The position numbers and the translations under genes are program-made. Shown one piece after another: positions 15,550 through 63,927 of a stretch of 64,000 nt of DNA (its first letter is position 1; each line of letters starts with the position of its first letter). The notes beneath the pieces were generated by a model. It was given only the letters and a program-made list of their open reading frames with translations. It was not told where the DNA came from and ran no database searches. Location of the stretch: NCBI GenBank assembly GCA_030737835.1, contig JAUJYN010000028.1, positions 1,054,001-1,118,000 on the forward strand, read 5' to 3'. The stretch comes from Acorus gramineus. Lineage: Eukaryota > Streptophyta > Magnoliopsida > Acorales > Acoraceae.

Positions 15550-17422
15550 TAACCAAAGCTAAGTGTGTAGATCTTACTACGGACCTTACCTATATATTAC
15601 ATACAAAATTCCCCTTAGAGAATATTATTGTTTGCATGTTGAACATACTTATGACTCATGAGATGAATTAGTATACTGACATTGATCTAAAATTGTAAAA
15701 TGGTTCAATACATATTGTTGAGTACTAATTTATTCATGCTCCAATCAATCTAGTAAAGATAATTTAGAGAAAGTTAGGGTACTTTTTTAGAAAAATGAAT
15801 TGTGTTGGATGAATTTGAATGGTTTAGGATTGAAAGATAGAGTTGTGAATGCATTTTAGTAACTCATTGAATTAAATATTATGTATTAGTCAAATTTTCA
15901 TTGTTTGTATGTTGGTGGCATTGATGAATCTCTTCTTCTTTTTTCCCCTTAGAGAAGAGTATTATTGGCATGACGAGCCAGTACCTACACCTTAGGAGGT
16001 GGTTTTGGGGTACATGGCATGGTTTTAGATGATGAACCACAATTCGAGACAGGGGACAACTATCAAGGCTACGCAGAGAGTAGTTGGATACACGATACAT
16101 TATTTGCAAGATGGAACACCACTTCATGACCGAAAATCTGTGTGATGTATGTCAAAGAAAATGCACAATCGACATGGATGAATTAGTTGGCTCATGTTAG
16201 AATAATATTTTCAATTTTTTTGTGTTATAGATTTCAGTGCCCACAAAAAATTGGTGTTAAATCATTTTTTATGTGTTTGTAGATTTAACTTGTATTATGT
16301 GTATTGAAACATAAGTTTAAATGAAGCTGTTTAAGTTTCAACACATGATTGTATTATGATTTGATTGTGTTTGTAGAACCTCATAATACTTTAGATGTGA
16401 ATATGTTAATTAATGTGAATGTGTTTTGGGGAATGTGAATGTCTTATTGTTATGCCTGTGTCATTTGGAGTCTTATTTTTTTTCGATCGGAGTCGCTAAA
16501 ATTTTGGTTTTTAGCCACCTGCGGGAGTTGGAGTACTCTGATTGAAAATCTAACTGCATATTATGGGTCCTAGTACCGTTTTGTACTACCCATAAAAATA
16601 TCTCTCTCTCTCTCTCTCACTCTCTCTCACTCACGTCTCCCTCTCCCTCTCTGTTTTTCTGTGTGTGTGTGGGTTGTTAATGAAGGAAAAGATGAAGAAG
16701 AAGCACAAGAAAGAGTGAGAAAGGGTGAGTATGTGTTGTTGTTGTTGTTGTTTCTCTTCTCTCTATCCCCTTCTCATGCCCCTTTGCACCCCCTGTTTTC
16801 TGCCATGAAGGGCTTGAGGATATGCTGATGAGGTGGTGGTAGTGGTGGTGGTGGTTGAGGTGGTCGTGGGTGTGTCGAGAACCCCGCATCTCCCCATTTC
16901 CCTCCTCCTGTTTTGGTAAGGCAGCACTCTGTATTTTAAAGATCTCAGTGAATCTAGTATTTAGAGGCACATTTTTGGGATTATGTCTTCATATGATATG
17001 ATCATCTATGTGTCTAGATGTTATATATGATATTTGGGGTCATTATGATATCTGTGTTGTATGTTAGAACCTGTTTTCCATGACCTGTCCAGATTCGCGT
17101 AGGAATTGATCTGTTTCAGGAAGTGATTTATTTCGAGATTGTAGAGGCAAAATTAGGTTATAATGTCTTCATGGATTATGATCCCAGTATGTTAGAGAAT
17201 GTGTATGATTTAGTTCATAATTTTTAGATGTGTATTTGGTGCTGTAGAGATCAATTAGTTGGGCTGGTTGCAGTAGGTTTAGCAGTTTTGCTCGATTGTG
17301 TGTCAAGAAGTTGTTATGCATGTTGTGGAAAGTATCAGAAGTTAGGGTCTTCATGAAGTAAGCTTATATGAGTGTCAAGAGGTTCCATATTTTAATTGTG
17401 GATCATTGGTTGTGTTTTGCAG

Positions 17423-17458
17423 ATCTCGTAGACCGGACGCGCGGCGATCTGGGTATCG
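17423..17458 (+). other. 36-nt exon-like block in LTR
   Basis: The block lies between TTTTGCAG and GTGAGTGG, good splice acceptor and donor sequences. It has the same 36-nt length as blocks at 54575-54610, 61036-61071 and 25387-25422 (minus). In the frame used by those copies it encodes LVDRTRGDLGI. Confidence 0.6.
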
Positions 17459-19432
17459 GTGAGTGGTTTGATCCAACCCTTCGGGAAGCGTTGGACGCAC
17501 GTAGTTGTGCGTCGCGCATCCGTTGGGTACCCTGACTATACTACTTAATTAGATAAGTAGTATGGTCATGTCTAACCCATAATATGCTAAGTATTTACAT
17601 GCTAGGTTAGTATAGCTTGTATATTGTGTAGAACCCCCCTTTTCTACCATATACTTGCCTATGTATGTTCATGTGTGAATTATTATGTATGCATGCGCCC
17701 TTCATGTATGACCATGTGTGATGTGGGTTTTCATGAATGTATAGAATAAGCATGCCTTAGGTAGTCCCTATGAGTAATATTACCATATTAATTGGAATAT
17801 CCAGCATGATTAAGCTTTGGTTAATAACGAGCACATGCCTAATATTCCCTTGCGATAAGACTCGAGGGCGTGATGTAGTTGTTGCGCCCATGTGAATGGG
17901 GCAAAGCTATGACCAAATTCAAGAGATGATGAGCTCTCTCCCGCCCTCTCCCTCTGCACGAACTGAGTAAGTAGATGCGATTTCCTACTAGACTCATGTT
18001 CGTTTGGAATATTGGCATGCACCTGTTAGTGCGCGAGATCGCGCTTAACCCTTCCCTTTAAAGTTGGTGATATCCAACGCATGCTTAAGTTATGCCTTGT
18101 GTGCTTATATGATTAATGGCCTTGTCTGCATGTTTAAGTGGGCCATACCTTGTATGCATGTTGTATGATTTATTGTTTATGATGTAAATCCATGTTAGGA
18201 GATACCCTAATAGTCAATTATTAGATGATCGTGTTATATATATGCACATGTTAAAACTAATTAGGCCTATTTGAAATAGCCGTGGGTACGACCCGCTGTC
18301 GGGATGTACCTCACTAGTTAGTGCGCGAGCGATGTAATCGCCCCTGCATCCGTGTGATGCACTTGAATGGAATTCAGGAGAATTCATTTGTTGTATCGGT
18401 TTTGTTAAACCGGTAGCTTTGGCATTAAGTTAGGCCTACTCGTGCTAGGTGCGTATATGAACTATCTGTTGGGTTATATGCCTTGGGCTTATTTCTACGT
18501 AAGAGCAGAGGTAACCCCTCGCGTCTAAGCGATGCACTCGTGTGGGAGTCCAAGAGTATTCGTTATAGTCGATATGTGATTATCGAGCGTAGTTGACTTT
18601 CCCATAGGGTTCGCTTTGCGAACGTGGGGTGCTTCCTCCCGACATCATCGTGTGTCGAAACACCCCAGCGTCGAAGCTGTCCTGTTTGGGTGCCACCACT
18701 TGTAGGTGCTACCGATGCGTATCGCGGTACACATCTGGCTGATGTACCGATTGTGGAAGGCCGACAGGTAGAGGCTACGCGGGAGAGGGCTACTGGATGA
18801 TATTGCAAGCGTGAAATCGTTCTCCCCTTCTTCGGATCCGCGTTGAAGCTATCCGACGTTAAAGCTATCCTGATAGAGCTCCCACCTGTAGGTACTACCG
18901 ATGCATTCGGCAGATGTGCTGATCATGGGAGTATACCAGGTAGAGGCTACCCGGGAGAGGGCTACCGGATGACGAAGGGTGTAGAGCATAAGGATGAACC
19001 CAAAAGTCCCTAGGGTCACCCCTCCGGGGGCTAGGGTGAGGATGAGTTGAAGTCACGTCACCGTGTGACCCATCCGTGGTTCGTCCGTTCCCATAGTTGT
19101 TGGGTCCGGTTATGTAACGATGTTCAAAGACATCGTTGAGCAGTTTTCTCGATGTAGATAATCCAGTAGTGTTGTGTGGACTAGTAATTCCGCGTCTCTT
19201 CGACAAACGGTATGGTCACTCCCCAAGAGTCCCAAGAGTCTCCCTCCCGGAGTGAGAGTGAGAGTGAGGGTGAGGTTGGTCGCGCCGCCGCGTGACCTTG
19301 TTATCCATTGGGTTTCTACCCATATTCTTCCTTGAAAGGAAATTGCTTTAGTAATGAATTGTTGTAATAGTGTTTGGTTTCCAGCCACTCACTGAGCTTG
19401 TAGCTCACCCCTCGCATACTGTTTCTTTTCAG

Positions 19433-22559: not shown

Positions 22560-24074
22560 TGTTGGAATTTTGATCAAAATACATAATTTAATGTTCTATG
22601 ATGAGTTGTAACTGACCTATCTAATTGCATTCGTTGTTTCTAAGGTTTATTGCATGCATGCATGCACGTAATTGAATGCATGAATTACTAATGAATGCAT
22701 GAGTTTCAAATGAGTCAATTACCACCGAAACATTTGTTTGCATTATTGTGTGTTTTAAATGTGTGAACGTTTCATCCTTGCTTCTCTTCTATTTAAGCAT
22801 AAGTTTTTGTTCTCTCTAACAGAGGGAAAAAGAGAGAAAATAAAATGGAGCACTCATATACTCTAAAATACTTTTTATCTATTGATCTTGATCAAGCCTT
22901 ATCTATTCCATTCTGGGCATCGACAATACAAGGATTTGGTTCGAGGACTCCACTTGATCGCACCACGGGGAGTGATGTAGCGTGGGATCACGTTCTTCTA
23001 CTGATTCGATCAAAGGATACGAATTCGCAGGCTCCAACGACGCTGTTGATTCTTCAAGCAAAATACCAGGGACGTTGGGCTTCAAAGTTCTGTTGATTTC
23101 TTCTGAAATACCAGATAATTGAAAATTCTATGTAGTTGTTTATCCTCCTAGGATAACAAAATACAATAGAGAAAATAAATAAATTTTAATAATCAATTAT
23201 TTGAATTCATAATATGATTTACAAGTCTATTTATAAGGCATAGAATCCTTAAAAGATTAAGATCTTAACTGCTTATCTAAATATGTTAAATAAAATTTTA
23301 ACAGATTTTCTAAATCTGAAAAATCATAAAGAAATCGCTACGTTTAAGAAGAACTGAATCCTTATGTCGTACTATGTTGTGTGATTAGTCGAAATTTGTG
23401 TCAAAATGGCTTAGTTCAAGGTGAAATATCCACTACGATCCATTTCATTCTTACTTATCTACACTAGGTGGAAGTTCAAGTTTGAAAGACACTTTTATTT
23501 ATGACATAATATAATTGCCTAAATATCATTCCACTCCTTGACTATTTCTATTTTGTGCTATATCTAGATTTATTATGCATTTTGTTCAGTGGGGGATTGT
23601 TGGAATTTTGACCAAAATACATAATTCAATGTTCTATAATGAGTTGTAAGTGACCCATCTAATTGCATTCGTTTCTAGGGTTTATTGCATGCATGCACGT
23701 AATTAAATGCATGAATTACTAATGAATGCATGTGTCACGCCCCAGGGCGGCCAACCCCGGGACGCGGCAAATGTATATATCATATCAGAAGCCTACACAG
23801 GAGGTCAATAATATATATCATACACAGACAACTAAAATGACACACATGCAACAAAAGGGGCTGACATGATATATACATCAAATGCGGAAGCAAAAGACTG
23901 AATCTGTGAATAAACATTCTACAGACTCGATACTCAATCATCTGTCCTGTGAGAGCCAATATACACAAATACAACTGAATATACACAACAAGTGCTCAGC
24001 ACGGAAAACAATACATACAACCGAGATAAGGGATGCTGATAGCCTCTGGTACTCGCGGACGTAGCGCTGCTTCG

Positions 24075-24139
24075 CTACTGAAGAAATCCCTCGGAAAGCT
24101 CCAACTGCTGCTCCGGCTCCAGCTCAGGCTCAGTGACCA
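24075..24139 (-). other. Terminal exon-like block in minus-strand LTR
   Basis: On the minus strand it follows TTTTTCCCCAG and runs 65 nt to TAG. In phase with the 36-nt block upstream it encodes an acidic end (VVTEPELEPEQQ, ending LQ-stop). It is 12 nt, that is 4 codons, longer than the equivalent 53-nt blocks at 55708 and 61910. Confidence 0.6.
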
Positions 24140-25386
24140 CTGGGGAAAAACATGTGCGAGGGGTGAGCCACACGCTCAGTGAACAGCACAACCCACGCAT
24201 CACAGACAATATTTACCAATATTCCATTATTTTATCCAGCCATCAATACATAACAACACAAACCAGTGGTTCGTACTTCGCCGAACCACCACACCCTCAC
24301 CCTCACCCATCCATGGGTGACATAGGATTTTGGGACTGATAATCATCTATTCACAAATCCAGTAGGTCGCTCATCGCCAACCCACTACACCCTCACCCTC
24401 ACCCTACCACGGGTGACATAGGATTTTGGGACTGACTAGGCTGTTGGTCACCCTTAGTCCACCGATAGTCTCTCCCTCCACTCCGTAGGCCGCCTGGTCT
24501 ACTCCCACATTCAGCACAGTCCGAAACCAAATCAGGAGGTGCCTACTAATGGGAGCCCTCTGTCAGGAAGGCCCTGTCTAACACTGGAGGTAGCCTCTAC
24601 CGGATCCAACGCAGGGAACAGAACAGCCTATCCATACGCATATGATCCACTCGGATCCGCCAACTACATATCATTACAACTCAAATGTCATGAATTCCTC
24701 TGAATTCAACCAGGTGCATCATCAAGATGCGGGAACATGTACAAAAATCAATAAGGCTGGAATATCATTGGGGGAAAGAAACTCGGAAGGGCGGCGTGAG
24801 TTCCCGTTATAGGATACCCCGACAACCAAACAAGGAACACGGAGTACCCTAACCCGGGTCTCACCGCTGTCCTTGCAAGGCCCCTCCCCTATAATATCTA
24901 CCAACTATACTAATAATTATACCAATCATACAATCATTACATATAATATTATTGGGACTAGAACCTTGGGAGGGCAGCCCGAGGTCCCGATACAGGACAT
25001 CCCGACAACCAAACAAGGAACACGGAGTACCCTAACACGGGTCTCAGCGTTGACCTCGCAAGGCTCCTCCCTATAATATTATCCTAAGGCATGCGATCTA
25101 ACAGATACCAGCATTTAATTTAATAATTAAACTAGTAGGACGCATGCATAGGCCGGGGTTTCCTAGCATGAAAACCAGGGGACATGCTGCATGGCTCATA
25201 CGCATATCCTATGGGTGCAAGTCCCTAACATAAAAGCCTAGGGTAGCATGCATTCTACACATCATTCACACAAGCATGGATTACATATTATTTGCAGGTA
25301 ATATTTATCCATGTCGCCCCAGGAGAGGTCGGTATACGCCCAAGTGCGTATAACACCTCTCTACTGGGTTGGATTGTCCCACTCAC

Positions 25387-25422
25387 CAGAATCGGGGTCG
25401 TCGCGCGACCGTCCGTCTAGAT
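25387..25422 (-). other. 36-nt exon-like block in minus-strand LTR
   Basis: On the minus strand it is bounded by CTTGCAG and GTGAGTGGG. In the shared frame it encodes LDGRSRDDPDS, nearly the peptide of the block at 54575-54610. Confidence 0.65.
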
Positions 25423-27035
25423 CTGCAAGACAGACAATCAATATGGTGAGTTAAAATCCATAAATACTACAAAATACATAAACCCACAATTAAACTCCCA
25501 ACACTCGGGCAAACGTGCATACGACCCGCACGCACGCTAGCCCGAGCACTCCGACAACCCCCCCCCCCGCACGGCCGGCCACCACCCGCACGGCCACCCG
25601 ACCGCCCGGACGCGCCGCCGCGCCTCAGCCCGCGCACTCCGCGCACCGCCCGGGGCCCCGCGCGTCCACCGAGCCCAGCCGCGGCAGCCCGCACGCGCCC
25701 CGCACGCCGTGCGCACGCTCCACGCCCCGCGACTTGGCGCCGCCTGGGTTGCTGCTGCTGCTGCTGATTGGCCCGGACGACTTGCCGCTGCCCGAGCGCC
25801 ACCACCACCCCTCCCTTGACCACCGACCACCTTCCAACCACCTCCGACCACCCTCCGACGACCCCCACTGCCACCAACCACTCCCCAAACACAAAACCCT
25901 CCCCTAGCATTCATCTAGACAAGAAAAAAGAGGGAAAGGAGGCTTACCGAGGGAAGGGGAAGATGTCCGGTAGCTCTTCGCGCGCCGAAACCTTTCCCAA
26001 AGGTTCTCTCACGCCCCGATCTATCACGGCCCTTGAAGTGGCTCGAAACAGAGGAGAGAGAGAGGAGGTCGGGGAGGCTAGGATCGTCGGAATTCGGATT
26101 TGAAGACACCGGAGCGTAGATCGGGACCCGATCTACACTTCCCGTGCTTTGGGTTTTCGATTTTGAGGGGTGGAGGGGGCTCAAACGGAAGAAAAACGGA
26201 GGAGAGGAGAGAGAGAGAGCTAGTCGGGAAGATGATGAATAGTGCCGAGATATTTTTGATTCCTTTTAAGTAGAGCGCGACTTAAAAACCCGGATACGCC
26301 CCGGAACTGGGAAATTTTTGCAAACGACGCCAGAATTCGATGAAATTTTCATGAGAGGTCTAAAATGGCGCCAGGACACCAAATATGCAGTTAGATTTCC
26401 AATCGGAGTCCTCTAGCTCAGACGATAGCTAACAGTCTGAAATTATGCGGTTCCGACCAAAAACCCTAAAAATTTTAAAAACTGCCAGGACGCTCCAACG
26501 GTTACCAGCAGGTTAAAAGTGACACAAATATAACAGCATGAGCTTCAAATGGGTCAATTACCATCGAAACGTTTTTTGCATTATTGTGTGCTTTAAATGT
26601 GTGAACGTTTCATCCTTGCTTCTCTCCTATTTAAGCATGAGTTTTTGTTCTCTCTAACAGAGGGAAAAAGAGAGAAAATAAAATGGAGAACTCATATACT
26701 CTAAAATACTTTTTATCTATTGATCTTGATCAAGCCTGATCTATTCCATTTCGGGCATCGACAATACAAGAATTCACACCATGGGGAGTCGGCGGAATCT
26801 CACGGGTCGAGTTGTATCTCGAAAACGAATGATGTCGGTGAAACTCTGTTCGTATAGAGGACATATTCGTTTTAAGGATAGCATCTCCTATGTACCTCTA
26901 GACCAAGCGATTCCAATCCTTTATCTCTTAATTCTATTATTTTTATATTATTGATATTTTAAAATATTGATTCCTCAAAATTATGATTCGTTGAGATACA
27001 ACATTTTTTTATGATTTCTGATAATTAGTTTTAAC

Positions 27036-41900: not shown

Positions 41901-44554
41901 TTCCTTCGCCTAGGTTTTGTCCCATTGGGTTTTCCTGGCAAGGTTTTAATGAGGCAGTGTCAAACGCATACACTATTATACGATTAAGTTACATTGTACT
42001 CTTTTTCCTTCGCTTTGGTTTTTTCCCATTGGGTTTTCCAAGCAAGGTTTTAATGAAGCAATTTTCTTAGCGTGGTGGTCATCCAAGGGGGAGTGTTGTG
42101 AATATGGTGGATAACCACCACTTCTCTAACCCATAACCTCCCCCACTCCTCAACTCCATAACCCCCTCATTCAACTCCATAACCTCCCCCACTCTTCTAT
42201 TCCATAACACTCCCATTATTGTCCCACTATATCCCCCTCACCTCTATAGACTTGTAACTCCCCATCTTTGGGATTCCTCTATGCACCCTATAAATAGAGG
42301 GGTTTCTCTTGTATTCCATTAACCAACAATATTGAATAAGAAATCTCTCTCTATTTCTCTTCTCTATATATTTATGTGTTTTGTTTATATATTCTTATGT
42401 ATTCATATTCTATTTAATTTACAACACATATAACTTTATTTCAAATTGAACGGACAATTTTTAGCAAGTGATAAAAAATTTAATGAGGAATTGTGTTTGT
42501 ACCATGGGGCGGAGGAGATGAGCTTAGACTTATTGACACGGCAGTGGACCTGGGTGAGCTCAGGGCGGTGGTTGTAAGCGCCACTCATAGTCAATATGAA
42601 GGCGTAGATCCATATTAATATCGTCGAGATCATCAGCGCGAACCGCTCCAGTATCGGCACGTGCCGCGTGTGATATCGGTGATGCTTCATGTACTGCATC
42701 AATCAAGGGATTGGGTTAGGCCCAATCTGCATTAGACAATCAAATTTAATCAAGGGATTGGGTTAGGTCCAATGCGCGTTGAACGATCAAATTTAATTGA
42801 ATCCTGAAAAAGTAAATATTAGAATTTGATTTATTCTAATTTTACTTTTGAAATATGATAGAATATATCAATAATAAATGCATCAATATGATCGGATGGT
42901 CACAATCATGTTGGACGATCAAATTGTCCAACACGCTTGGGACCTAATCCGATTATGAAACCATTTGTAGTAAAAAAAAAAAAAAACAAAAATTTGTGCA
43001 AACATACCTGAGAGAGGACAATGAAGAGAATTAGCATGGGAACACCGATCTCCACGCATTTCCCAACCTGTGGGAATCCTCTGTCTAAGAGGCCGAAGCC
43101 TAACAATGCGACGACTGGAACCATCCCCAATGGGCTGAAGAATCTGAAAAATTGTTATTTTAGGATGATATTAGAGACAGTTTTACATACAATCTTCACG
43201 TGTTTTGATTTATTGGAAAGCTCCTAATGAATCACATATATCCCTTCACGTTAGAAAAAAGAGAGAGAGAGAGAGAGAGAAAATCCACATGTTTTATCTA
43301 ATGAAACATATGTTTCGTTAGCAAAATGGTACCATAAGCAAGGCTGCATATATGACTGTCTATATAAGATCGCTTGTGAGAACACCTTTTATATTGTATT
43401 AGACATGATGGAACAAGAAAGACCAAGATGATTTTGAAGAGCGCAACAAAAAGAGTACCTAGAACAGATGCCCCAGAGCTGGCTGTAGCCCAGGAGGATT
43501 TGTATGAAGGATGATACTATCACTGCACCTTGGATAGCCCTCATAGTTTGTATGAATCTCTGACAACCAACAGAAAAGAAATTTTTTACGCACATCAGTT
43601 TTCCATATCTTTTAAAAAAACCAATAATTATTATGAATCTTGGAATTATTAGCGACTAAATCTTGGAATTATTAGTGACTAACATCATGGTCATCAGTTA
43701 TCCGGGTCAAATTGGAGTCGTGGATGATGGAGATGATGGGAACAATGAACGCGTAGGATCCCCCCATGACTGTAGGGAGACGAGTTCCAAAGAGTGTCTG
43801 CAACATCGTATTGATTCCTCCCACAAAGAGCAATGTTTGGATTACTCGCACTTTTTCATTCTGCACATTTGAAAAAGGATTTGGGTAGCTTTGCTTTTGT
43901 AGGAATTATATTTAATTCAAACTGGTTTCCAAATGTCTCCAGAGATCATAGCTTTCATAGAAAGTAAAAAACTACATTTATTTATTAAAAACAACTTTCT
44001 AAGAATCTGAAAAAAGTACGTATTTTGGAAAACCATTTTCAAAATCTTTTTTAAATGCTACCTAAGTATTGTTTAGCATATTTTGTGAACGAATCAAACT
44101 TTGCAACTGTGGGTAGAACTTAATTTAAAGCCTATTTGAGAAAATATGAAAACAAGTCTCTGTATCTTGAACCGACAATCACTTATATTCAATTTAGTTC
44201 CATCAATGTTGAAACATATTGATCAATCATTAGAGTAAGCAACTTGAAACAGAGGACAAATACAGAGAAGCAACTCACATCATCACCTCCCATCAATGGA
44301 ACAAGAATAGTGGGTATCATCACTGCAGTTCCTAGAGCCAGAATATAGTGTTGAAAACCAAGAGCAATGGCTTCACCTGCCAAATACAAAACCCAAATCA
44401 GGGATTAGTGTCTACTACTTTTCCATTCAAAGATGATCACAAAATTTGGAAAGAAGTACACACCCCATCTCGGGTTCGAGTCGATACAATACTCGAATCC
44501 TTGGAGTTGATCCATTGGCCGGTGCATCATGTCTTCTAGTTTATACTCTGCCAT
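38940..44554 (-). CDS. Nucleobase-ascorbate transporter (NAT/NCS2 family), twelve exons, intact
   Basis: A multi-spanning membrane transporter; plant members are related to uracil/xanthine permeases and likely move nucleobases at the plasma membrane, though substrates must be tested. Minus-strand exons: 44464-44554, 44279-44376, 43684-43860, 43459-43559, 43008-43143, 42503-42693, 40436-40532, 39824-39969, 39659-39750, 39494-39571, 39245-39405, 38940-39152. All borders are GT-AG and phases agree; the total is 1581 nt, 526 residues plus stop, normal for the family. The start MAEYKLED (44554) precedes PMDQLQGFEYCIDSNP. Family motifs: QHYILALGTAVMIP (QH motif, TM1) and ENVGLLGATR, the NAT signature [QEP]-N-x-G-x4-T-[RKG]. 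The C-terminus is NLHRYFPPV. The gene ends 256 bp from the convergent O-fucosyltransferase. Intron 6 holds a copia remnant and intron 5 a foldback repeat, without harm to the exons. Confidence 0.95.
39161..39184 (-). other. Long poly-T at the acceptor of the last NAT intron
   Basis: On the gene strand about 24 T precede GCATTTCAG (acceptor at 39153-39154). It serves as the polypyrimidine tract. Homopolymers this long vary in length between alleles and sequencing runs. Confidence 0.7.
40710..42426 (+). mobile_element. Internally deleted copia element in NAT intron 6
   Basis: It starts TGTTGTGAATATGG and ends TTTACAACA, flanked by CATAT at 40705-40709 and 42427-42431. The right LTR is complete (42094-42426, 333 bp) and is preceded by the polypurine tract CCAAGGGGGAG. 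The left LTR is kept only to about 40982, where it joins directly to the reverse-transcriptase/RNase H end of pol. The 3' LTR end, gag, protease, integrase and most of reverse transcriptase are deleted. It is antisense to NAT. Confidence 0.92.
40996..41842 (+). pseudogene. Copia reverse transcriptase end and RNase H remnant
   Basis: An open frame to TGA at 41840-41842 covers the end of copia reverse transcriptase (VIGALLYLAQCTRPDIAFSV) and RNase H (GYADSGYLSD, QTGYVFTCGG, YEDNAACI, LADLFTKAL). It has no start of its own; the ATG used by the longest frame (40925) lies in the LTR fragment. The absence of internal stops suggests the deletion is relatively recent. Confidence 0.85.
42703..42957. 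repeat. Foldback repeat with a tandemly doubled left arm in NAT intron 5
   Basis: The segment AAGGGATTGGGTTAGG occurs twice (about 42706 and 42754), about 48 bp apart. Its complement appears near 42930-42957 (GGGACCTAATCCGATT), and TTGGACGATCAAATTGTCCAA near 42911 is itself inverted. This resembles a MITE whose left terminal repeat was tandemly duplicated. No clean TSD was found. Confidence 0.5.
43259..43281. repeat. GA microsatellite in NAT intron 4
   Basis: About eleven GA dinucleotides in a row, flanked by A-rich sequence. It is likely to be length-polymorphic. Confidence 0.9.
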
Positions 44555-48330: not shown

Positions 48331-49270
48331 TGTTATATATGTGTCACTTTTTAGCCTTCTGGTAACCATTGGAGCATTTTGGCAGTTTTTGAGTTTTTTT
48401 CGTTTTTCGATCGGAACCGCTAAAATTTTGGACTGTTAGCTATCGTCCTGAGCTAGAGGACTCCGATTGAAAATCTAACTGCATATTATGTGTCCTGGTG
48501 CCATTCTAAGCCACTATAAAAAATTTCATCGAATTCCGGTAACGTTTCTGAAATTTCGCAGTTCCAGGGCGTATCCGGGTTTTGACCGAGCGAGAAGTCA
48601 TTGGGAGAGTTGACTCGGTCAAAGTGGGCCCATGACTTGGTCAACCCTTTTTGTTTTTTTGTGTGGTTGGGTTGACCCAAGTCAAAGCCCACTTAAACTC
48701 TTTAATCAAGCCTTAAACCCTAATTAATCCTTCTTAACCCTAATCTAAGTGTTGACTATTTAAAGTGAGAGCTAAAAAGTTGCCCCCCACTATTCATCAT
48801 CTTCCCCACTTGTTTTCTCTCTCCCCCTCTCTCCTTTTCTTGGTTTTGAGCCACCTAGAGTTCTTGAAACTCAAAACTCAAAACATAGAAAGGTTAGATC
48901 CGGTCCCGATCTATCCCCCGGTGTTCTCGGATTCGAGTTCCGACAAGTTTGGCCCCCTCTAACCCCCTCTATTCTCCCCTGTTTTCAGCCCCATTTGAGG
49001 TAGGAAGAGGTCTTGGTGGTGGAGATCCTTGGGGAGGCGTTTCGGTGCACGAAGAGCCTCCGGTTCCCTTCCTTTCCTCTCCTTTCCTTGGGTAAGGGTT
49101 CTTTCCTTCTTTTTCATGTTTAGATGCATGTTAGGAGGGTGGGGTTGAGTGTGGAGGGCGGCTGGTGGCTGTCGGTGGTGGTTGGGGGGTGGTCGGAGGC
49201 CATTGGTGGCCGGTGGGTGGTGGTAGAGGTGCTCGGGCAGGGTGGTTGGTTGTCTCGGGCAGTAGGCAAG
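48331..49270 (+). repeat. Truncated 5' LTR of the gypsy element
   Basis: It matches the right LTR from 53079 to about 54030: the U3 block, TATTTAAA (48757-48764), CT-rich leader and TTGG|GTAAGG donor-like site (49091/49092). Similarity stops in the GCAGGCGCAGCAAG repeats, where it passes into gag sequence. Repetitive GCAG motifs on both sides may have guided the deletion. Confidence 0.8.
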
Positions 49271-49339
49271 CGCAGCAAGCGTGCAGTGGCAGCGCGAGGT
49301 CCAGCACCCATCGCAACAGTGTCGGTCCAGGCGAGGCGA

Positions 49340-52300
49340 CCAGAGTTGCGGCGCTGTTATCACTGTCAGCGCATCGGGCATATCTTGTATAATTGCCCAG
49401 AGTGATGCCTCCACAGCAGTAGCAGTTGCAGCAGCAGCCGTTTCAGCAGCAGCGCCAGCAGCAGCAGCAGCAGCCTTAGCGCCAGCCGCAGCAGCAACCT
49501 CAGTGTCAGCAGAAGCCACGAGGTGGCCATGTTGACCAGAGGAGGCAGCCAGCGCAGCCGGCGAGGCGTGCCCCTGCTCCTCAGCCGCAGTTCGTGCAGG
49601 GCCGAGTGGCAGCGCTTTCAGCAGAGGAGGCTCAGGCATCAGGCAGCGTGGTCAGAGGTATTGTTCAGATCTCCCAGCTTCCTGCATATGTATTGTTTGA
49701 TTCCGGAGCCACACACTCGTTCGTGTCTCCCGCTTTTGCGAGACGGATGAGCGTGGCGTCCGCTTCTTTAGATGCTATCTTGGAGATATCATTGCCCGTG
49801 GGAGACCGTATTCTCCTCAGTTCAGTGTACCGAGGGTGTACGGTAGAGGTTGTGGAGCATGAGTTTCCAGTGGAGTTGGTGGAGCTCGCGATGATGGACT
49901 TTGATGCCATCCTGGGAATGGATTGGCTTGCAGCTAGTCACGCCAGCATCGACTATTTTGCCAAGTTGGTGTCGTTCCACCTTCCGGATCGGAGGTCCTT
50001 CCAGTTCGTGGGCGATCGTGACGTAGCCCCTTTGGGGTTCGTGTCGTCCATGCAAGTGTGGAGGCTCCTTCAGGGAGGATGTGAGGGCTTTCTAGCATAC
50101 ATTGCTCAGGAGGATGCACCGCTGCAGGCAGATATCAGTCAGACTCGGTCGTGGCAGAGTATCCCCAGGTTTTTCCCGATGATCTTCCGGGATTACCCAC
50201 GGATCGCGCGATCGAGTTTGAGATCGATCTGGTTCCGGGGACCGAGCCGATTTCGAGAGCTCCGTACCGGATGGCCCCTGCAGAGCTGAGGGTGCTCAAG
50301 GAGCAGTTGGAGGAGTTGCTGGAGAAGGGCTTCGCACGTCCGAGTGTTTCTCCGTGGGGAGCCCCTGTCCTGTTCGTCCGGAAGAAGGACGGTTCGCTGC
50401 GGCTGTGTATTGATTACAGGCAGCTGAATAAACGGACAGTGAAGAACAAGTACCCGTTGCCGCGGATCGACGATCTGTTTGACCAGCTCCAGGGAGCGCG
50501 TGTCTTTTCCAAGATCGATCTCCGCTCGGGGTACTACCAGCTGAAGATCCGGGAGTCAGACATTCCGAAGACGGCCTTTCGCACCGGTATGGGCACTACG
50601 AGTTCAGAGTACTGCCATTCGGGTTGACGAACGCGCCGGCGGCCTTCATGGATCTGATGAACCGGGTATTTCGGCCCTTCCTCGACTCCTTTGTGGTAGT
50701 ATTCATCGATGACATATTGGTGTACTCGAGGAGTCTTGAGGAGCACGCTCACCATCTCCGCACTGTCTTGGAGACTTTGGCCAGACATCAGTTGTTCGCC
50801 AAGTTCAGCAAGTGCGAGTTCTGGTTGGAGCGTATGGCCTTTCTGGGCCATGTGATTTCCGGTGAGGGCATAGCTGTGGACCCAGAGAAGACGCTCACCG
50901 TGTCGAATTGGCGTTGACCGTCGAACCTCACAGAGATTCGTAGCTTCTTGGGCTTGGCGGGTTATTACAGGAGGTTTGTCGAGGGTTTCTCGAAGATAGC
51001 CGTTCCTCTTACCCGCCTCACTCGGAAGGATGTTCGGTTCGAGTGGTCCGCTGCTTGCGAGGAGAGCTTCCAGGAGCTGAAGCGAAGGCTCACCTCAACG
51101 CCAGTTCTTACCCTTCCGTCTGGGAGTGGTGGGTTCAAGTTTATACAGATGCATCGCAGTTGGGTGTGGGTTGCGTCCTGATGCAGCACGTAAGGTTGTG
51201 GCTTACGCGTCTCGTCAGTTGAAGCCCCATGAGCAGAATTACCCCACCCATGACCTTGAGTTGGCAGCGATCATCTTTGCGCTGAAGATGTGGAGGCATT
51301 ACCTCTATGGAGAGGAGTTCGAGCTCTTTACTGATCATAAGAGCTTGACATATCTGCAGTCCCAGCCGGAGCTCAACATGCGTCAGAGACGTTGGGTTGA
51401 GTTCCTGACGGACTATGATTGTGACATCGCTTACCATCCGGGTAAGGCGAATGTCGTGGCAGATGCGCTCAGTAGGCAGCCCTTGGGCATGGCCGCCCAT
51501 ATGGCTGTCCGTCGTTGGAGGCTTCTGGAGGAGGCCGCTTGCTGGATCAGTGTTCGAGAGACTCCTGCGGGTGGCTTTTTGGCCAGGCTGGTGGTGCAGC
51601 CAGTTCTTCTCGACGATATCCGCACGGCTCAGGCTCAGGATCCGCATTTTGTAGTCCTCTCTGAAGGCGTCGCCCGGGGCGAGCGTGCGGACTACCAGAT
51701 TCACGCAGACGGGATCCTGCGATTCAGAGGCCGAGTGTGATTCCCGACGACGCAGAGCTGAAGCGGAAGATTCTGGACGAGGCCCATCGTTCGAGGTACA
51801 CAGTGCATCCTGGTGGCACGAAGATGTACAGGGGCCTTCGTGGCTACTGGTGGCGCGGGATGAAGACGGATATTGCCCGTTTCGTTGCCCGATGCCTAGT
51901 ATGCCAGCAGTTGAAGTCGGAGCATCAGCGCCCTGCGGGGAAGCTGCAATCCATTGAGATCCCTCAGTGGAAGTGGGAGCAGATCACCATGGACTTCGTC
52001 TCGGGTTTGCCGAGGTCACGTTCGGGTCGCGATGCCATCTGGGTGATCGTCGACCGGCTGACGAAGTCTGCTCATTTCCTCCCCATCCGACTCACCGATT
52101 CTCTGGACACCCTGGCGCAGTTATTTGTCTCCGAGATTGTCCGTCTCCATGGCACTCCAGTCAGCATCATTTCCGATCGAGACGCGCGTTTTACTTCGAG
52201 GTTCTGGCGTAGCCTCCAGCACGCCCTTGGTACGAACCTCCATTTCAGTACAGCGTTTCATCCGCAGACGGACGGCCAGTCGGAGAGGACGATCCAGACT

Positions 52301-53030
52301 CTTGAGGATATGCTGCGGGCCTGTGTTCTCGATTTTGGGGGCAGTTGGGAGAGGCACCTTCCGTTGGTGGAGTTTGCCTACAACAACAGCTACCACTCGA
52401 GCATCCGGATGGCTCCTTACGAGGCTCTATGGCCGCAGCTGCAGGTCCCCCTTGTGTTGGGACGAGGTCGGAGAGCGCCAGTTAGAGGGACCAGAGATCG
52501 TTCACCAGACCTCCGAGATGGTAAAGACGATTCGCGAGCGTATCCGAGTTGCTCAGAGTCGTCAGAAGTGCTACGCCGACCGTCGTCGCCGTGAGCTCAC
52601 CTTCGAGGTTGGTGACCATGTGTTCTTGAAGGTGTCCCCGATGAAGGGCATCTTCCGATTTGGTGTGCGGGGCAAGCTGAGTCCGCGTTTCATTGGGCCG
52701 TTCCTCATCCTCGAGCGAGTTGGAGAGGTGGCCTATCGCATAGCTCTGCCCCCACAGTTGGCTCAGGCTCATGACGTCTTCCATGTCTCGCAGCTGAGGC
52801 GATATGTCCACGATCCTGCTCACGTCATCCCGTTCGAGCCGCTCGTCTTCGAGCCGGACTTGTCTTTCGTTGAGCAGCCGATTGAGATCCTGGACCGCCG
52901 CGAGAAGAGGCTCCGCACCAAGACCGTCCAGCTGGTCAAGGTGCGATGGCAGCACCGTTCCGGTGCCGAGGCCACCTGGGAGCTCGAGGACGCCATGCGT
53001 GACGCGTATCCGCATCTTTTCCCTTCTTAG
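49340..53030 (+). pseudogene. Gypsy gag-pol remnant with chromodomain
   Basis: In order: gag zinc knuckle CYHCQRIGHILYNC (49352-49393), a CAG-rich spacer, aspartic protease LFDSGATHSFV (near 49695), reverse transcriptase ([22 protein letters not shown] near 50366; FIDDILVYS near 50702), RNase H ([11 protein letters not shown] near 51328), the integrase zinc-binding region ([19 protein letters not shown]), the core ([10 protein letters not shown] near 51986) and a C-terminal chromodomain (VKVRWQH, ATWELEDAM) to TAG 53028-53030. Frame changes occur near 50151, 50584, 51133, 51189, 51736 and 52428, and a TGA interrupts at 50915-50917. Most frame changes are single-base losses. Confidence 0.9.
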
Positions 53031-53065
53031 ATGTTCTTGTATTTATTTTGAGGACAAAATTTCCT

Positions 53066-53078
53066 AAGGGGGGGAGAA
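53066..53078 (+). other. Polypurine tract of the gypsy element
   Basis: AAGGGGGGGAGAA directly precedes the right LTR, where plus-strand DNA synthesis is primed. Confidence 0.9.
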
Positions 53079-54049
53079 TGTTATATATGTGTCACTTTTT
53101 GCCTGTTGGTAACCATTGGAGCATTTTAGCAGTTTTTGAGTTTTTTCATTTTTCGATCGAAACCGCTAAAATTTTGGACTGTTAGCTATCGTCCTGAGCT
53201 AGAGGACTCCGATTGAAAATCTAACTGCATATTATGTGTCCTGGTGCCATTCTAAGCCACTCACAAAAATTTCATCGAATTCCGGTAACGTTTCTGAAAT
53301 TTCGCAGTTCCGTGGCGTATCCGGGTTTTGACCGAGCGAGAAGTCATTGGGAGAGTTGACTCGGTCAAAGTGGGCCCATGACTTGGTCAACCCTTTTTGT
53401 TTTTTTGTGTGGTTGGGTTGACCCAAGTCAAAGCCCACTTAAACTCTTTAATCAAGCCTTAAACCCTAATTAATCCTTCTTAACCCTAATCTAAGTGTTG
53501 ACTATTTAAAGTGAGAGCTAAAAAGTTGCCCCCCACTATTCATCATCTTCCCCACTTGATTTCTCTCTCCCCCTCTCTCTTTTTCTTGATTTTGAGCCAC
53601 CTAGAGTGCTTGAAATCGAAAACTCAAAACATAGAAAGGTTAGATCCGGTCCCGATCTATCCCCCGGTGTTCTCGGATTCGAGTTCCGACAAGTTTGGCC
53701 CCCTCTAACCCCCTCTATTCTCCCCTGTTTTCAGCCCCATTTGAGGTAGGAAGAGGTCTTGGTGGTGGAGATCCTTGGGGAGGCGTTTCGGTGCACGAAG
53801 AGCCTCTGGTTCCCTTCCTTTCCTCTCCTTTCCTTGGGTAAGGGTTCTTTCCTTCTTTTTCATGTTTAGATGCATGTTAGGAGGGTGGGGTTGGGTGTGG
53901 AGGGCGGCTGGTGGCTGTCGGTGGTGGTTGGGGGTGGCCGGAGGCCATTGGTGGCCGGTGGGTGGTGGTGGAGGTGCTCGGGCAGGGTGGTTGGCTGTCT
54001 CGGGCAGCAGGCAGCACAGGCAGCGCAGCAGGCAGGCGCAGCAGGCGTG

Positions 54050-54430
54050 CAGTAGCAGGGCGCGCGCGCGCGTGCGCGCAGACTTGAGCGCGGGCGTGCG
54101 CTCGGGTGGCGCAGGCGCGGGTGTGCTGGGCGCTGGGCGTGCTGGTGTGCTGGGCGAGGGTGCTGGGCGCTGGGCGCTGAGCACCGTGCAGGAGCATGCG
54201 CGCGGAGCGCTGGGCAGAGGCGCAGGCGTGCGCGCGGTGAGGCGAGCAGTAGTGCGAGGGGGCGGGTGCGTGCGGGGCGCTGCGCTGGGGCGCAGTGCGC
54301 GCGGGTGCACCGGGGGGCTGGTCGAGTGCGTGATGCGCGTGGTGGTGCGCGCGGAGTGCGCTCGGGGCGAGGCGCTGGGGCGCGGTGGTGCATCCGGGGG
54401 CGGGTGGCCGTGCGGGTGGTTGCCGAGGGT
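54050..54430 (+). repeat. CpG-rich, alternating purine-pyrimidine block in the LTR
   Basis: Dense GCGCGC and GTGCGC tracts, for example GCGCGCGCGCGTGCGCGC near 54060. Equivalent blocks lie at 25510-25770 (minus), 57850-58260 and 60580-60900, but their sequences differ widely although flanking LTR parts align. High GC keeps many frames open on both strands; these are not genes. Confidence 0.8.
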
Positions 54431-54574
54431 TCGGGAGTGAGTCGGGGTGCTCGGGCTAGCGTGCGTACGGGCCGTATGTACGTTTGCCAGAGTGTTGGGT
54501 ATTTTTAGAGTATTTTTGTGTATTTTTGTGGTATTTGTGGATTTTACTCACCAAGTTGATACCCTGTCTTGCAG

Positions 54575-54610
54575 ATCTTGACGGACGGTCGCGCGACGAC
54601 CCGATTACCG
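54575..54610 (+). other. 36-nt exon-like block in LTR
   Basis: It lies between GTCTTGCAG and GTGAGTGGG. In the shared frame it encodes LDGRSRDDPIT, with a split codon at each end. Joined in phase to 55708 it continues to a stop. Confidence 0.65.
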
Positions 54611-55707
54611 GTGAGTGGGACAATCCAACCCAGTTGGGAGGCGCTATATGCACTTGGGCGTATACCGTCCTCCCCTGGGGCACCATAGATTAATATTAAC
54701 CTGTTTAATATGTAATCCATGCAAGCATGATTGATATGTAGTATGCATGCTACCCTAAACTGAGTATGTTAGGGACTTGCACCCATAGGTTGTGTAAGAG
54801 CCATGCACCTTGTTATCATGCTGGGAAAGCCTCGGCCTTTGTATGCATCCTATTAGTTTAATTTGTTAAATTAAATGCAACTTGTAATATTATAGCATGC
54901 CTTAGGGAATATTAAGGGGCCTTGCGAGGTCAACATTGAGACCCGGGCTAGGGTGCTCCGTGTTCCTTGTTTGGTTGTCGGGATGTCCTATATCGGGACC
55001 TCATGGTGCCCTCCCAAGGTTTCTTTTCCCGTCTATACTAATGCATGTTCCCCGCATCTTGGTTATGCGCCCTGGAGGAATTCTGATGAATTCAAGACAC
55101 TAGAGTTGTAGAGATGTGTTGTCAGCGGATCCGAGTGGATCATATGCGTGTGGGTAGGCTGTTTCTCTTCCCTTCGTTGGATCCGTGTAGGGACTCCTCA
55201 GCGTTAGACAGGCTATCCTGACAGAGGGCTCCCATCAGTAGGCACCTTCTGATCTTGGACTCAGACTGTGCTGAATGTGGGAGTAGACCAGGCAAGCTAT
55301 GGTGTGGAGGAGAGGCTATCGGTGGACCAAGGGTGATTAACAGCCTAGTCAGTCCCAATATCTTATGTCACCTGTTGAGGGGTGAGGGTGAGGGTGTATG
55401 GATGTGTATGGATGTGTATGAATGTGTATGGATGATTATCAGTCCCAATATCCTATGTCACCTATTGAGGGGTGAGGGTGAGGGTGTATGGATGTGTTTG
55501 GATGATTATCAGTCCCAATATCCTATGTCACCTATTGAGGGGTGAGGGTGAGGGTATGGTGGTTCGGCGATGCAACGAATCACTGGATTATGTTGTTAAG
55601 CCACTTTGAGGCTGTTGTTGATTATTTGTGGTTGATATAAACTGTGATGCATGGGTTGTGCTGTTCACTGAGCGTGTGGCTCACCCCTCGCATAATTGTT
55701 TTTCCAG

Positions 55708-55760
55708 TGATTACTGAGGAGGATCTGAAGGAGGAGCTCCCTGAGCGACTGCACCAGTAG
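55708..55760 (+). other. Terminal exon-like block in LTR
   Basis: It follows GTTTTTCCAG and a conserved CTCACCCCTCGCATA branch-point-like region. It encodes the acidic ITEEDLKEELPERLHQ and ends at TAG 55758-55760. The equivalent block at 61910 encodes SESDLKEELPE. Confidence 0.65.
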
Positions 55761-56174
55761 CGGAGTAGCGCTACGTCCCGCGAGTTTCTGAGGCCATCAA
55801 CATCCTTCCTTGTTATTGTATGTATATATTTATGTGCTTGGGCACCCAGTTTGGATTATATTTGGATGTATGTGTGTATATTGGCTCTCACAGGACATTT
55901 GATTTGTATCGAGTCTGTAGTATGTTTTTGGATTACAGACTCAGTCTTTTAGCTTCCGCTATCTGTGTATATATTATGTCAGCCTTGCTTTCATCTGTGT
56001 TGTTGTCATTTTAGTTGTTGTTTAGAGTGATTTATTGATTCCCCTTTTTAGACTGCTGATTTCTTGTATACACTTGCCACGACCCGGGGACGGCCGCCCT
56101 GGGGCGTGACACCTCCTCCTATACAATGTCAAAAGAACAAAGATCTAATGGGGGGTCAAATCAAGCACCCTATT

Positions 56175-59648: not shown

Positions 59649-61035
59649 ATGTTTTTGTATTAATTTTGTGGACAAAATTTCCTAAGGGCGGAAGAATGTA
59701 ATATATGTGTCACTTTTAGCCTTTTTGGTCACCTTTGGGACATTTCTGGCAGTTTTCCAATTTTTCTTTTTTCGATCGGAACCGCTAAAATTTTAGAATT
59801 TTAGCTATCTGCATGAGCTCGAGAACTCCGATTGAAAATCTAACTGCACATTATGAGTCCTGGTGCCATTTTGAGCCACTCACAAAAATTTCATCGAATT
59901 CCGGTAACGTTTTAGAATTTGGCAGTTCCGAATCGTATCCGGGTTTTGACCGAGTTGGAATGTCAAAGGGGGGACTTGACCAAGTCAAGAAGACTTGGAC
60001 CAAGTCAAATTTGACCATTGACTTGGTCAAATATTTTTTTTTTTTGTGTGGTTGGGTTGACTCAAAGTCAAGCCCCACCAACCCTAATTGTTCATTAATG
60101 AGTGTGTGTGTGTGTGGTCACTAGTGTTAGGCGTCCCCCTTCTTTTCCCCCATCTCCATCTCCCTCTCACACACTCCATCACTCACTCCCTCTTCTTTCC
60201 TTTTGTTCCATTAGAGGTAGTAGAAGAAGAAGAAGAAGAAAACCCTAGAGAGGAGAAGTGGAGGTGTGTGTGTGATCTACCTTTGTATGGTGTTTGATTT
60301 GTTTTCCCTTTTCTCTATCTCCCTCTCATGGCTTCCCCCACCCCTGTTTTCAGCCATTTTTAGGGCTTGAGAGTGGCTGAGGAGGTGGTGGTCTTGGTGG
60401 TGGCGGTCGTGGTGGTTTGGTGCGCAAAGGGCACCCGAGCTTCCTCCCTTTTCCTTCCCCTCCTTGTTGGTAAGTCCTCCTCCTCCCTTAGCTTGTTTAG
60501 ATGATTGTTAGGGTGTTTAAGTGGTCATGCATGCCTTGCATGGGTGGTAGGGGGTGTGGGTGGGCTGAGGAGGGGGTGGAAGGGGTTCGGGCGCGCGCGT
60601 CTGCGCGCGTAGACAGGCGCGCTGGCGGGCATGCGCGCGTACGCGCAGACGCGTCGGGTGTGCGCGCGGGGTGCTGCGTGGGGGCGCAGTGCGCACGGGT
60701 ACGCGTGGGCTGGACGCGTGGTGCGCGCGGGGGCGAGCGAGTGTACGCGCGTGCGCGGCAGCGCTTCTGGCCGCGCGGGCAGGCGTGCGGGCAGTGCGCC
60801 AGGGGTGCTGGGGTGCATGCGTGCGTGCGCATTCGTGCGTGCGCGTGCGGGGGGCCATGCGTGTGGCTGCCCGAGGGCTCGGGTGGGTGTCGGGGCACTC
60901 AGACTCGCGTGCGTACGTGCGTGCTCGCATGCGTGCGTGTCCGTATGCATGCTTGTCTGAGTATTTGGGTATTTCTAGTAAATTTCATGTGTATTGTGTA
61001 GTTTACTCACCATATTGAATGCCCATGTCTTGCAG

Positions 61036-61071
61036 ATCTTGGCGAACGGTCACGCAACGACCCGGGTTTCG
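61036..61071 (+). other. 36-nt exon-like block in LTR
   Basis: It lies between TCTTGCAG and GTGAGTGGG. In the shared frame it encodes LGERSRNDPGF; compare LDGRSRDDPIT at 54575. Confidence 0.65.
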
Positions 61072-61909
61072 GTGAGTGGGTCAATCCAACCCAGTAGGGA
61101 GGCGTTCGATGCACGTAGGCGTGCATTGCCCTCTCATGGGGCACCATAATTGTATATTAACTTGTGCTAAATGAAAAACTATGTAATGCATATTTTTATA
61201 TGATGTAACCATGCCACATTAGACCTTGTATGCTAGGGTTATACATCCATATATCATGTATAGAAGCCCATACATGCCTAGACACCATGTCCCATGCTTG
61301 GAAAGCCTTGACCTACGCATGATTCCCATTTAGTTTAACTTATTTAAATCAAATGAGAATATATTGTTATAACATGCCTTAGAGAATATTATAACCTTGT
61401 TGTTATAATATATGTTTCCCCGCATCTTAGTTATGCGCCCTGAAGGAATTCTTGAGAATTCATGACATTAGAAATGTTAGGAATCGTTGTCGACAGATCC
61501 AAAAGGATCGTATCCGTGTGGGTAGGCTGTTTTCTCCCCTTCGTTGGATCCGAGTAGGGACTCCCCGGCGTTGGAAAGCTGTCCTGACAGAGGGCTCCCA
61601 TCTGTAGGTACCTCCGATGCGTCGGAGGGTGCTGATCGTGGGAGTATACCAGGTAGAGGCTACGGAGTGTGGGAGAGGCTACTGGTGGACCAAGGGTGGA
61701 GAGCAGTCTAGTCTGTCCCAAAAGGCCCATGTCACCCCTTAAAGGGTGAGGGTGAGGGTGGGGTGGGTCGGCGATGTTACGACCCACTAGCTTGTGTAGT
61801 TACTCCCGTTTAGGGACTTTGATTATTTTAAGGTTAATAGGAGTTGTGTGCATAGATTGTGCCATTCACTGAGCGTGTGGCTCACCCCTCGCATATTCTT
61901 TTCCTCCAG

Positions 61910-61962
61910 TTGTATCTGAGTCGGATCTGAAGGAGGAGCTCCCCGAGGCATCACAGCAGTAG
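61910..61962 (+). other. Terminal exon-like block in LTR
   Basis: It follows TTTTCCTCCAG and is 53 nt, the same as at 55708. It encodes SESDLKEELPEASQQ and ends TAG. Confidence 0.65.
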
Positions 61963-63927
61963 CGGAGCAGCGTCACGTTTTGGGTTCTGCGAGTGAGAGG
62001 CCATCAGCATCCCCTTCTTGCTTGTATGTATTGTTATCCGTGCTTGGGCACAACACTTGTGTTTGTATGTTTTTGTTTATATTGGCTCTCACATGACAAT
62101 TGATTATGTATTCTGGTCTGTAATATGTCTTTGAATTACAGACTCAGTCGTTTAAGCTTCCGCTATATATATATATATTATGTCAGCTACATTATTGTCT
62201 GTGTTGTCGTTTTCGATGTTGTTTAGAGTATTTTATTGATCTCCTGTATAGACTGCTGATATTATATATATTTGCCACGTATCGGGGACGGCCACCCTGG
62301 GGCGTGACAATATGTTTCCCCGCATCTTAGTTATTTGCCCTGGAGGAATTCTTGAGAATTCATGACATTAGTAGTGTTAGAAATCGTTGTCGACGGATCC
62401 AAGAGGATCGTATCCGTGTGAGTAGGCTGTTTTCTCCCCTTCGTTGGATCCGAGTAGGGACTCCCCGGCGTTGGAAAGCTGTCCTGACAGAGGGCTCCCA
62501 TCTGTAGGTACCTCTGATGTTTTTGGAGGGTGCTGATCATGGTAGTATACTAGGTAGAGGCTACGCGAAGGAGAGGCTACTGGTGGACCAAGGGTGGAGA
62601 GCAGCCTAGTCTGTCCCAAAAGGCCCATGTCACCCCTAAAGGGTGAGGGTGAGGGTGGGTCGGCGGTGTTACAACCCACTAGCTTGTACAGTTCCTCCAG
62701 TTTAGGGACTTTAATTATTATAAGGTTAATATGAGTTGTGTTGCATAGATTGTTGTTATGCCTGTGTTTTGATATCTCGATAAGTGATTATCGAGAGTAG
62801 TTGTTTTTCGTTGGGTTCGCTTTGCGAACATGGGATCGTTCTCCCCTTCGTTTGATCCGATGTAGGAACTTCTCTGGATTACAGCTGTCCTAACAGAGGG
62901 CTCCCATCTGTAGGTACTACCGATGCATTCAGGAACGTACTGACCATGGGAGTATACCAGGTAGAGGCTACCCGGGGAAAGGGCTACCGGTGGACCAAGG
63001 GTGTAGAGCGGTGAGTTGAAGAGGCCGGGTTGTAGCTGTCCTGATAGAGGGCTCCCATCCGTAGGTACCACCGATGCATTCGGGAGCGTACTGATCGTGG
63101 GAGTATACCAGGTAGAGGCTACCCGGGAGAGGGTTAACGAATGATATTGGTGAGGGTGAGGATGAGGCGAAGACACATCGCCGCGTGACCCATTCGTTGT
63201 TCGACCGTTCCCATAGTTGTTGGGTCCGGTCTCGTAATTGATGTTCAAGGACATCGTTGGGCAGTTATCTAGATGTAGATGATCCAGTAGTGTTGTGTAG
63301 ACCAGTAATTCCGGGTCTCTTCGACCGACGGTATGGTCTCTCCCCAAAAGTCCCAAGAGTCTCCCTCCGGGAGTGAGGGTGAGGGTGAGGTGGGTCGCGC
63401 TGCCGCGTGACCCTGTTATCCATGGGTTTCCACCCATGTTTTCCTGGAAAGGAAAGTGCTTATGTATTGAACTGTAGTATGGTGATTGGTTTCCAGCCAC
63501 TCACTGAGCTTGTAGCTCACCCCTCGCATACTGTTTCTTTTTAGGGGCAATGTTGGACGTGGAGCTGGAGCTTTCCTGTGGTGTGGTCTTATGGGCGTGG
63601 AGCGTTCTTCTGGCGGATGGCGAGTGCGAGGCTGTCAGCAGTCCTAGAGTCATTGTATGTATTGTAAATCGTGCATGTGGCATAGGTTGTATTTTCTTTG
63701 GTCTAGACTTGGCTCTCACAGGACAGTGATTGTGTATTCGAGTCTGTAATAATGTTTTTGATTTACAGACATTGTTTATATATTATGCTTCCGCTTTTCA
63801 GTCAGTTATCATTATCCTTGCTTTGCCACCTTGTGTGTTGTTGTTGGGGTCTTTATTGACCTCAGGTATTGATAGCTGATATTTTATTATTGCCACGTCT
63901 CGGGGATGGCTGCCCTGGGGCGTGACA

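Follow-up and report, generated by a model that had tools for sequence, protein, structure and literature searches.

The leaders of retroviruses carry a splice donor in or near the R region and a structured packaging signal behind that donor, and the unspliced RNA is the one that is copied. Among plant elements with long terminal repeats (LTRs), the retrotransposon BARE1 of barley is described, in the available part of the report, as translating one pool of RNA and copying another, with one of the two spliced (PMC3735527). Alternative splicing has also been described for the plant LTR retrotransposons EVADE and Ogre (PMC12786077, PMC6317226, available parts). The Gypsy/Ty3 element Cer1 of Caenorhabditis elegans has a large mRNA that is not spliced and another that is; the latter can encode a protein of ~60 kDa that shares Gag peptides, and the available part of the report notes no LTR exon (PMC3315495). 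This report concerns a Ty3/gypsy retrotransposon of Acorus gramineus whose 3.0-kb LTR probably encodes a noncoding spliced leader. The stretch analysed, termed the window, is 64,000 nucleotides (nt) long (assembly GCA_030737835.1, contig JAUJYN010000028.1, positions 1,054,001–1,118,000, forward strand).

Like BARE1, the element is a plant LTR retrotransposon, and a two-pool scheme is proposed for it here from genomic sequence alone. Unlike BARE1 as described in that report, it has genomic copies of a spliced form, for the first of two introns. The introns of BARE1, EVADE and Ogre are placed by these sources in or between coding regions, whereas here they lie inside the LTR, and EVADE and Ogre belong to different lineages from this element. 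As in retroviral leaders, a donor is found in the LTR/leader with structured RNA just behind it; unlike in retroviral leaders, a 3-kb LTR contains two introns as well as a 36-nt exon, and packaging is here a proposal. Among the titles and selected passages covered by the literature search, which did not extend to subscription papers, none describes introns inside a plant LTR.

Intron 1 and genomic copies that lack it

The original prediction for this DNA was that the LTRs may encode a short acidic peptide from a multi-exon transcript or keep a spliced leader. The parts of the LTR that bear on intron 1 are as follows.

53079..56111, + strand: LTR, 3.0 kb, TGTTATAT...GTGACA, aligned with genome copies
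53535..53837, + strand: exon 1, ~300 nt, nearly ATG-free; 5′ end predicted, 3′ end fixed by retrocopies
53838..54574, + strand: intron 1, GT-AG, CpG-rich simple repeats
54547..54551, + strand: branch-point-like box CTCAC of intron 1; CTNAY in 70 of the 74 copies of exon 2
54575..54610, + strand: exon 2, 36 nt, joined to exon 1 in retrocopies; the block with its splice sites is 54569–54616
54611..55707, + strand: predicted intron 2, with many ATGs; present in the intron-1-less copies read

Genome-wide searches were made in the host assembly (398.6 Mb, 137 contigs). The exact junction of exon 1 to exon 2, with no mismatch allowed, is present at 24 genomic places; a reversed control gave 0, and a junction displaced by 3 nt gave 0 matches in the genome. 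In all seven junction loci that were read, intron 1 is precisely absent, while GTGAGT and intron 2 are kept. Families with a TTG donor end display TTG/ATCT at the junction and those with a TTGG donor end display TTGG/ATCT, each as GT-AG splicing predicts.

Across the initial 100 nt of intron 2 the seven loci are 79%–94% identical, and their exon 1 and exon 2 sequences also differ. Because these copies differ, more than one event of intron 1 loss is likely. Two same-strand junction pairs are spaced 5,123 and 5,088 bases apart (a third pair, at 14.4 kb, was not counted), whereas, of the ordinary same-strand exon 2 pairs among the matches listed, seven are spaced 6.0–6.5 kb and an eighth 8.0 kb. 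The spacing of ~5.1 kb thus fits the two LTRs of one element without intron 1, and loss from both LTRs is what would follow if an R region were spliced and then reverse-transcribed.

Intron 1 displays the properties of a spliceosomal intron, i.e. GT-AG ends, a branch-point-like box in the range expected of a branch point (20–40 nt before the AG) and precise removal. The intron-1-less LTRs are best explained by splicing, reverse transcription and then insertion. An opposite order of events, in which the LTR originally had no intron 1 and acquired this CpG-rich sequence by a later insertion, would need no splicing. The two forms do coexist, but intron 1 is bounded by GT...AG and contains a branch-point-like box whose third base is free. 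Copies with the junction are rare in comparison with the 14,159 matches to exon 2, the seven that were read are unlike one another in exon 1, exon 2 and intron 2, and in families that differ in their donor end the junctions match accordingly. A late insertion is therefore highly improbable. The multi-exon transcript or spliced leader of the original prediction is thus well supported at intron 1; for intron 2 the support consists of splice signals.

It should be noted that intron 1 consists of a mosaic of short tandem repeats rich in CpG and G (54007–54180, 25819–25864), which is odd for a plant intron, and that its length differs among copies.

The exon 2 block and splice sites

The TTGCAG-[36 nt]-GTGAGT block had been reported for four LTRs in the window and is present in all four. 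In 100 shuffles of the window it appeared 0.07 times on average and twice at most. The three further blocks are:

17417..17464, + strand: exon 2 and splice sites, in the LTR at 16448–19798, the most diverged; donor 1 not aligned
25381..25428, − strand: exon 2 and splice sites, in the LTR at 23733–26535
61030..61077, + strand: exon 2 and splice sites, in the LTR at 59697–62309

The pattern TTGCAGATCTN{20,45}GTGAGT has 7004 + 7155 = 14,159 matches genome-wide, and its reversed control 0 + 1. In the loci read, a pattern that demands at least 34 nt has 74 matches, of which 69 are exactly 36 nt long, three 37 nt and two 39 nt. Copies of 35 nt are also found among the genome matches listed, including a same-strand pair 6.0 kb apart (C1:20054081, 20060111).

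For site counts, 39 LTR loci were fetched by similarity, three of these were dropped by a length filter, and the remaining 36 were aligned with the four window copies. Splice sites were counted in 38 rows, with the window copies W16448 and W59697 left out. Donor 1 GTAAG and donor 2 TGAGT are invariant in the 38 rows. The GT of donor 2 is intact in 37, the G of acceptor 2 in 37 and the AG of acceptor 3 in all 38. The claim that a donor GGTAAG lies upstream in each LTR is therefore upheld in the aligned rows (38/38) but is unconfirmed for the LTR at 16448, because W16448 is not aligned at donor 1; W59697 is also unaligned there, but has a GGTAAG close by. The proposed junctions 53837/54575 and 54610/55708 agree with GT-AG introns.

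Both introns have a branch-point-like box, and the plant branch point consensus is CTNAY with a free third base. In intron 1 the variants are CTCAC (62), CTAAC (4), CTTAC (3) and CTGAT (1), i.e. the third base varies. This box ends 21–25 nt upstream of the acceptor end, with one of 70 at 15 nt. The corresponding features at the end of intron 2 are:

55680..55684, + strand: branch-point-like box CTCAC of intron 2; box start 27–31 nt from the AG end in 72 boxes
55708..55760, + strand: exon 3 block, a predicted exon, purine-rich, TAG-ended in the frame of the original prediction; acceptor AG as counted above

Taking both introns, the boxes start 26–31 nt before the acceptor end. In the LTRs read, an acceptor CTCACCCCTCGCATA...CAG opens the TAG-ended block, as had been described; this was seen with 74 boxes from the fetched loci and the window, two of them without a subsequent AG, and one of these two is apparently a chance match. 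The block lengths of 53 and 65 nt given for exon 3 are correct.

Retention of intron 2 and the hairpin

Probes for the junction of exon 2 to exon 3, at up to one mismatch, and for that of exon 1 to exon 3 gave 0 matches genome-wide. The junction 2 probe is the more sensitive one, recovering 17 of 29 LTRs in a motif-fetched set and 36 of 46 in a similarity set, vs. 7 of 29 and 29 of 46 for junction 1. Thus the lack of intron 2 loss is not due to a weaker probe. Intron 2 carries splice signals, including its branch-point-like box, and a structured segment follows donor 2.

54636..54674, + strand: predicted RNA hairpin, beginning at the 26th nt of intron 2

From a mixed alignment RNAalifold obtained no informative structure, and two structural types were then aligned separately. 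Twelve segments without the end motif were set aside and 38 kept. The first set consists of 30 segments and three junction loci, the second of seven segments and L054; L046 was left out. In the 33 distinct rows of the first type 98.2% of 495 cells are paired, and in the eight rows of the second, from related LTRs that differ in sequence and form a 9-bp stem, 94.4%. The covariation score of each type was reached by 0 of 500 shuffles, though kinship among sequences can beat shuffles without structure. Slid controls drop to 32%–70% paired for the 33-row type and 7%–56% for the 8-row type. The folding z-score is −4.1 in the first of three window copies, whose antisense scores −2.9, and −3.2 and −4.0 in the other two. 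Many one-sided changes in the 33-row hairpin yield G-U pairs, which favors the sense RNA. The sole match in Rfam was far below the gathering score.

The position and strong folding of the hairpin, at the 26th intron nucleotide, would also suit a role in controlling the use of donor 2 and not in packaging, with intron 2 retention reflecting inefficient splicing. Such a hairpin alone leaves the loss of intron 1 and the retention of intron 2 unexplained, unless splicing of intron 2 is very rare; we consider this role less likely than not. The reading preferred here is that intron 2 is retained in the RNA that is copied.

Intron 2 also holds a tandemly duplicated 70-bp unit at 55414–55555. BLAST pieces suggest that the copy number of this unit differs between LTRs.

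The gag-proximal acceptor

In three copies read, gag begins ~115 nt after the first base of the primer-binding site, and an acceptor, CTGATCCTAGTGTCTGGTTTTCTTAG, ends 9 nt upstream of the gag ATG, past the primer-binding site. A 35-mer consisting of CTGATCCTAGTGTCTGGTTTTCTTAG and the following 9 nt is found at 2,226 genomic places with up to three mismatches (control, 0). Exact copies lie at the expected distance behind loci L065, L071, L073 and L077, which are <94% alike. Joining of exon 2 to this acceptor would delete the primer-binding site and leave a short leader that has hardly any ATGs or none. Since the primer-binding site would be lost, a genomic copy of the exon 2/gag junction is not expected.

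Six of the 11 near-matches to an exon 2/gag junction that a search returned share one 13-nt flank before GTTGCTGATATG, five of them identically, and there is no AG acceptor (C11:6892986, C55:2103948, C61:1035128, C65:2400953, C74:506149 and C74:539151).

Exon 1, exon 3 and the question of a peptide

53503..53509, + strand: TATA-like TATTTAA, present in 32 of the 40 rows aligned

Transcription would start ~30 nt downstream of TATTTAA. In 39 rows the ATG density of exon 1 is 0.68/kb in the sense strand and 12.71/kb in the antisense strand. The window exon 1 has 0 ATGs, but 36 of 500 shuffles are equally low, so that the deficit there is no more than suggestive. In the same rows the density is 0/kb in exon 3 and 34.8/kb in intron 2. 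A scan of IMG/VR for the exon 3 box gave 0 matches. A dimer palindrome, GTAGCGCTAC, after exon 3 was considered and dropped, given the diverged rows.

The original prediction of an acidic peptide can be broadened to a short peptide or C-terminal tail, from a spliced LTR transcript or from a protein begun elsewhere in the element. A coding-like signal is present, if weak. The ratio of nonsynonymous to synonymous polymorphism (pN/pS) of exon 3 is 0.41 in the predicted frame vs. 1.0 and 1.5 in the others (27 distinct 53-nt blocks; stops in 2 of 27), and that of exon 2 is 0.64 vs. 0.98 and 1.04 (48 distinct 36-nt blocks; stops in 0 of 48). The exon 3 frame accounts for four of the five lowest ratios among 201 overlapping window-frames (62 rows thinned to 20), and length differences are multiples of three in 37 of the 40 distinct exon 3 blocks that have a downstream anchor.

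However, windows in the introns also reach pN/pS values of 0.35 and 0.39, and permutation tests find no significant excess of variability at third codon positions (p = 0.29 and 0.39). The pN/pS test took only 53-nt exon 3 blocks and 36-nt exon 2 blocks, and so left out frameshifted lineages: exon 3 is shifted by −11 and −5 nt in multicopy lineages, and exon 2 copies of 35 or 37 nt exist. There is no ATG upstream in exon 1, whose frame varies between families, and neither a start codon nor a kept frame was found. Joining of a donor in gag to exon 2 was also considered and rejected, as no strong donor, by a donor-site matrix, is common to the gag regions of the three copies scanned. In addition, splicing-enhancer constraint on the purine-rich, GAG-rich exon 3 could mimic a coding signal. 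The peptide is not established, and we regard it as improbable, although the low pN/pS leaves some room for a tail of a protein begun elsewhere; a noncoding leader is preferred.

Identity of the element and other features of the window

The LTR has TG...CA ends (TGTTATAT...GTGACA), and 5-bp target duplications flank loci L009, L012 and L022. Directly after the LTR, in three loci read, is TTGGTATCAGAGC, a primer-binding site which we take to be that for tRNA-Met. Open reading frame pieces in the window show the domain order RVT_1, RT_RNaseH, Integrase_H2C2 and SH3_Tf2-1, and the gag piece of L079 has a Retrotrans_gag match. The element is a Ty3/gypsy retrotransposon. It is chromovirus-like and probably a chromovirus; the Chromo match at the end of the last open reading frame (E-value = 4.3e-4, 20.6 bits) is below the cut-off of 25.1. 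Its placement in Tekay/Del is our guess from the long LTRs and this sub-cut-off match. A clade list is found in the available part of PMC6317226. Several loci resemble solo LTRs.

An element at 48331–53078 ends in the 53079 LTR. Positions 48331–49281 are 96.8% identical to 53079–54025, the 5′ LTR match breaks off after ~950 bases, and pol pieces follow; this is probably a truncated or internally deleted copy. A ~90-bp tandem repeat (TAACTCATTCCAGAACCTACAG...) is present at 15189–15553 and 20070–20627, on either side of the 16448–19798 LTR, which looks as if it had been inserted into the repeat array. Two direct copies of 273 bp with 97% identity are located at 40710–40982 and 42094–42365, their starts 1.4 kb apart.

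Discussion

The observations are probably best accounted for by a noncoding spliced leader in the LTR, with intron 2 retained in the RNA that is copied and removed for the Gag mRNA. The leader would consist of exon 1, intron 1, the 36-nt exon 2 and intron 2, all inside the LTR. Removal of intron 1 would be compatible with reverse transcription, whereas intron 2, with its hairpin and many ATGs, would stay in the RNA destined for packaging and copying. Removal of intron 2 would give the Gag mRNA, exon 2 being joined to the gag-proximal acceptor or to exon 3 of the LTR. Splicing of intron 2 would thereby divide the translated RNA from the replicated RNA. That intron 2 serves to mark replicable RNA explains the asymmetry between the introns best, but as a proposal, not as a demonstrated fact. 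The fuller proposal, that the LTR has two introns of which the hairpin-tagged second marks replicable RNA, while loss of the first is a heritable record of splicing in both daughter LTRs, is put forward tentatively, as a possibility short of an even chance.

Several findings weigh against this account. Splicing is indicated here by genomic copies, not by RNA, and the absence of intron 2 loss could also reflect rare splicing of intron 2. A retrocopy of the exon 2/gag junction was not found: the 11 matches at two mismatches, vs. 6 in the control, are at chance level. The 33-row hairpin has just two doubly changed pairs, a number reached by 202 of 500 shuffles, and the second type has three, reached by 93 of 500. 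One diverged row carries two ATGs in exon 1, exon 2 holds some ATGs (4.27/kb in 39 rows), and the 42 ATGs of the window intron 2, vs. a shuffle mean of 36.8, are at a level set by base composition. The splice signals of exon 3 are conserved, but exon 3 has no clear role in the gag route, and in the three 5′ LTRs that were read it is followed by six ATGs each time.

Site conservation is likewise equivocal. Half of the other non-CpG sites are equally invariant in this young LTR set, and variability in 36 rows is lower in intron 2 (0.030) than in exon 3 (0.053), exon 2 (0.064) and exon 1 (0.070), so that the exons do not stand out. Conservation in the young set is thus weak evidence by itself. 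Among six diverged copies, variability is lower in exon 2 (0.120) than in intron 2 (0.168), and higher than in intron 2 in both exon 3 (0.249) and exon 1 (0.312). The CTNAY pattern of the intron 1 box is more telling for splicing than conservation of the sites.

What lies within the long LTRs of such elements usually receives little description, the LTRs being regarded as promoters and terminators. Should they contain a spliced leader together with a mark for replication, the length of the LTR would have a reason, and transcript annotation would have to change. The division of one transcript between translation and copying would become testable in a family with ~14,000 pattern matches, and the intron-1-less copies would provide a record of splicing that can be read without RNA.

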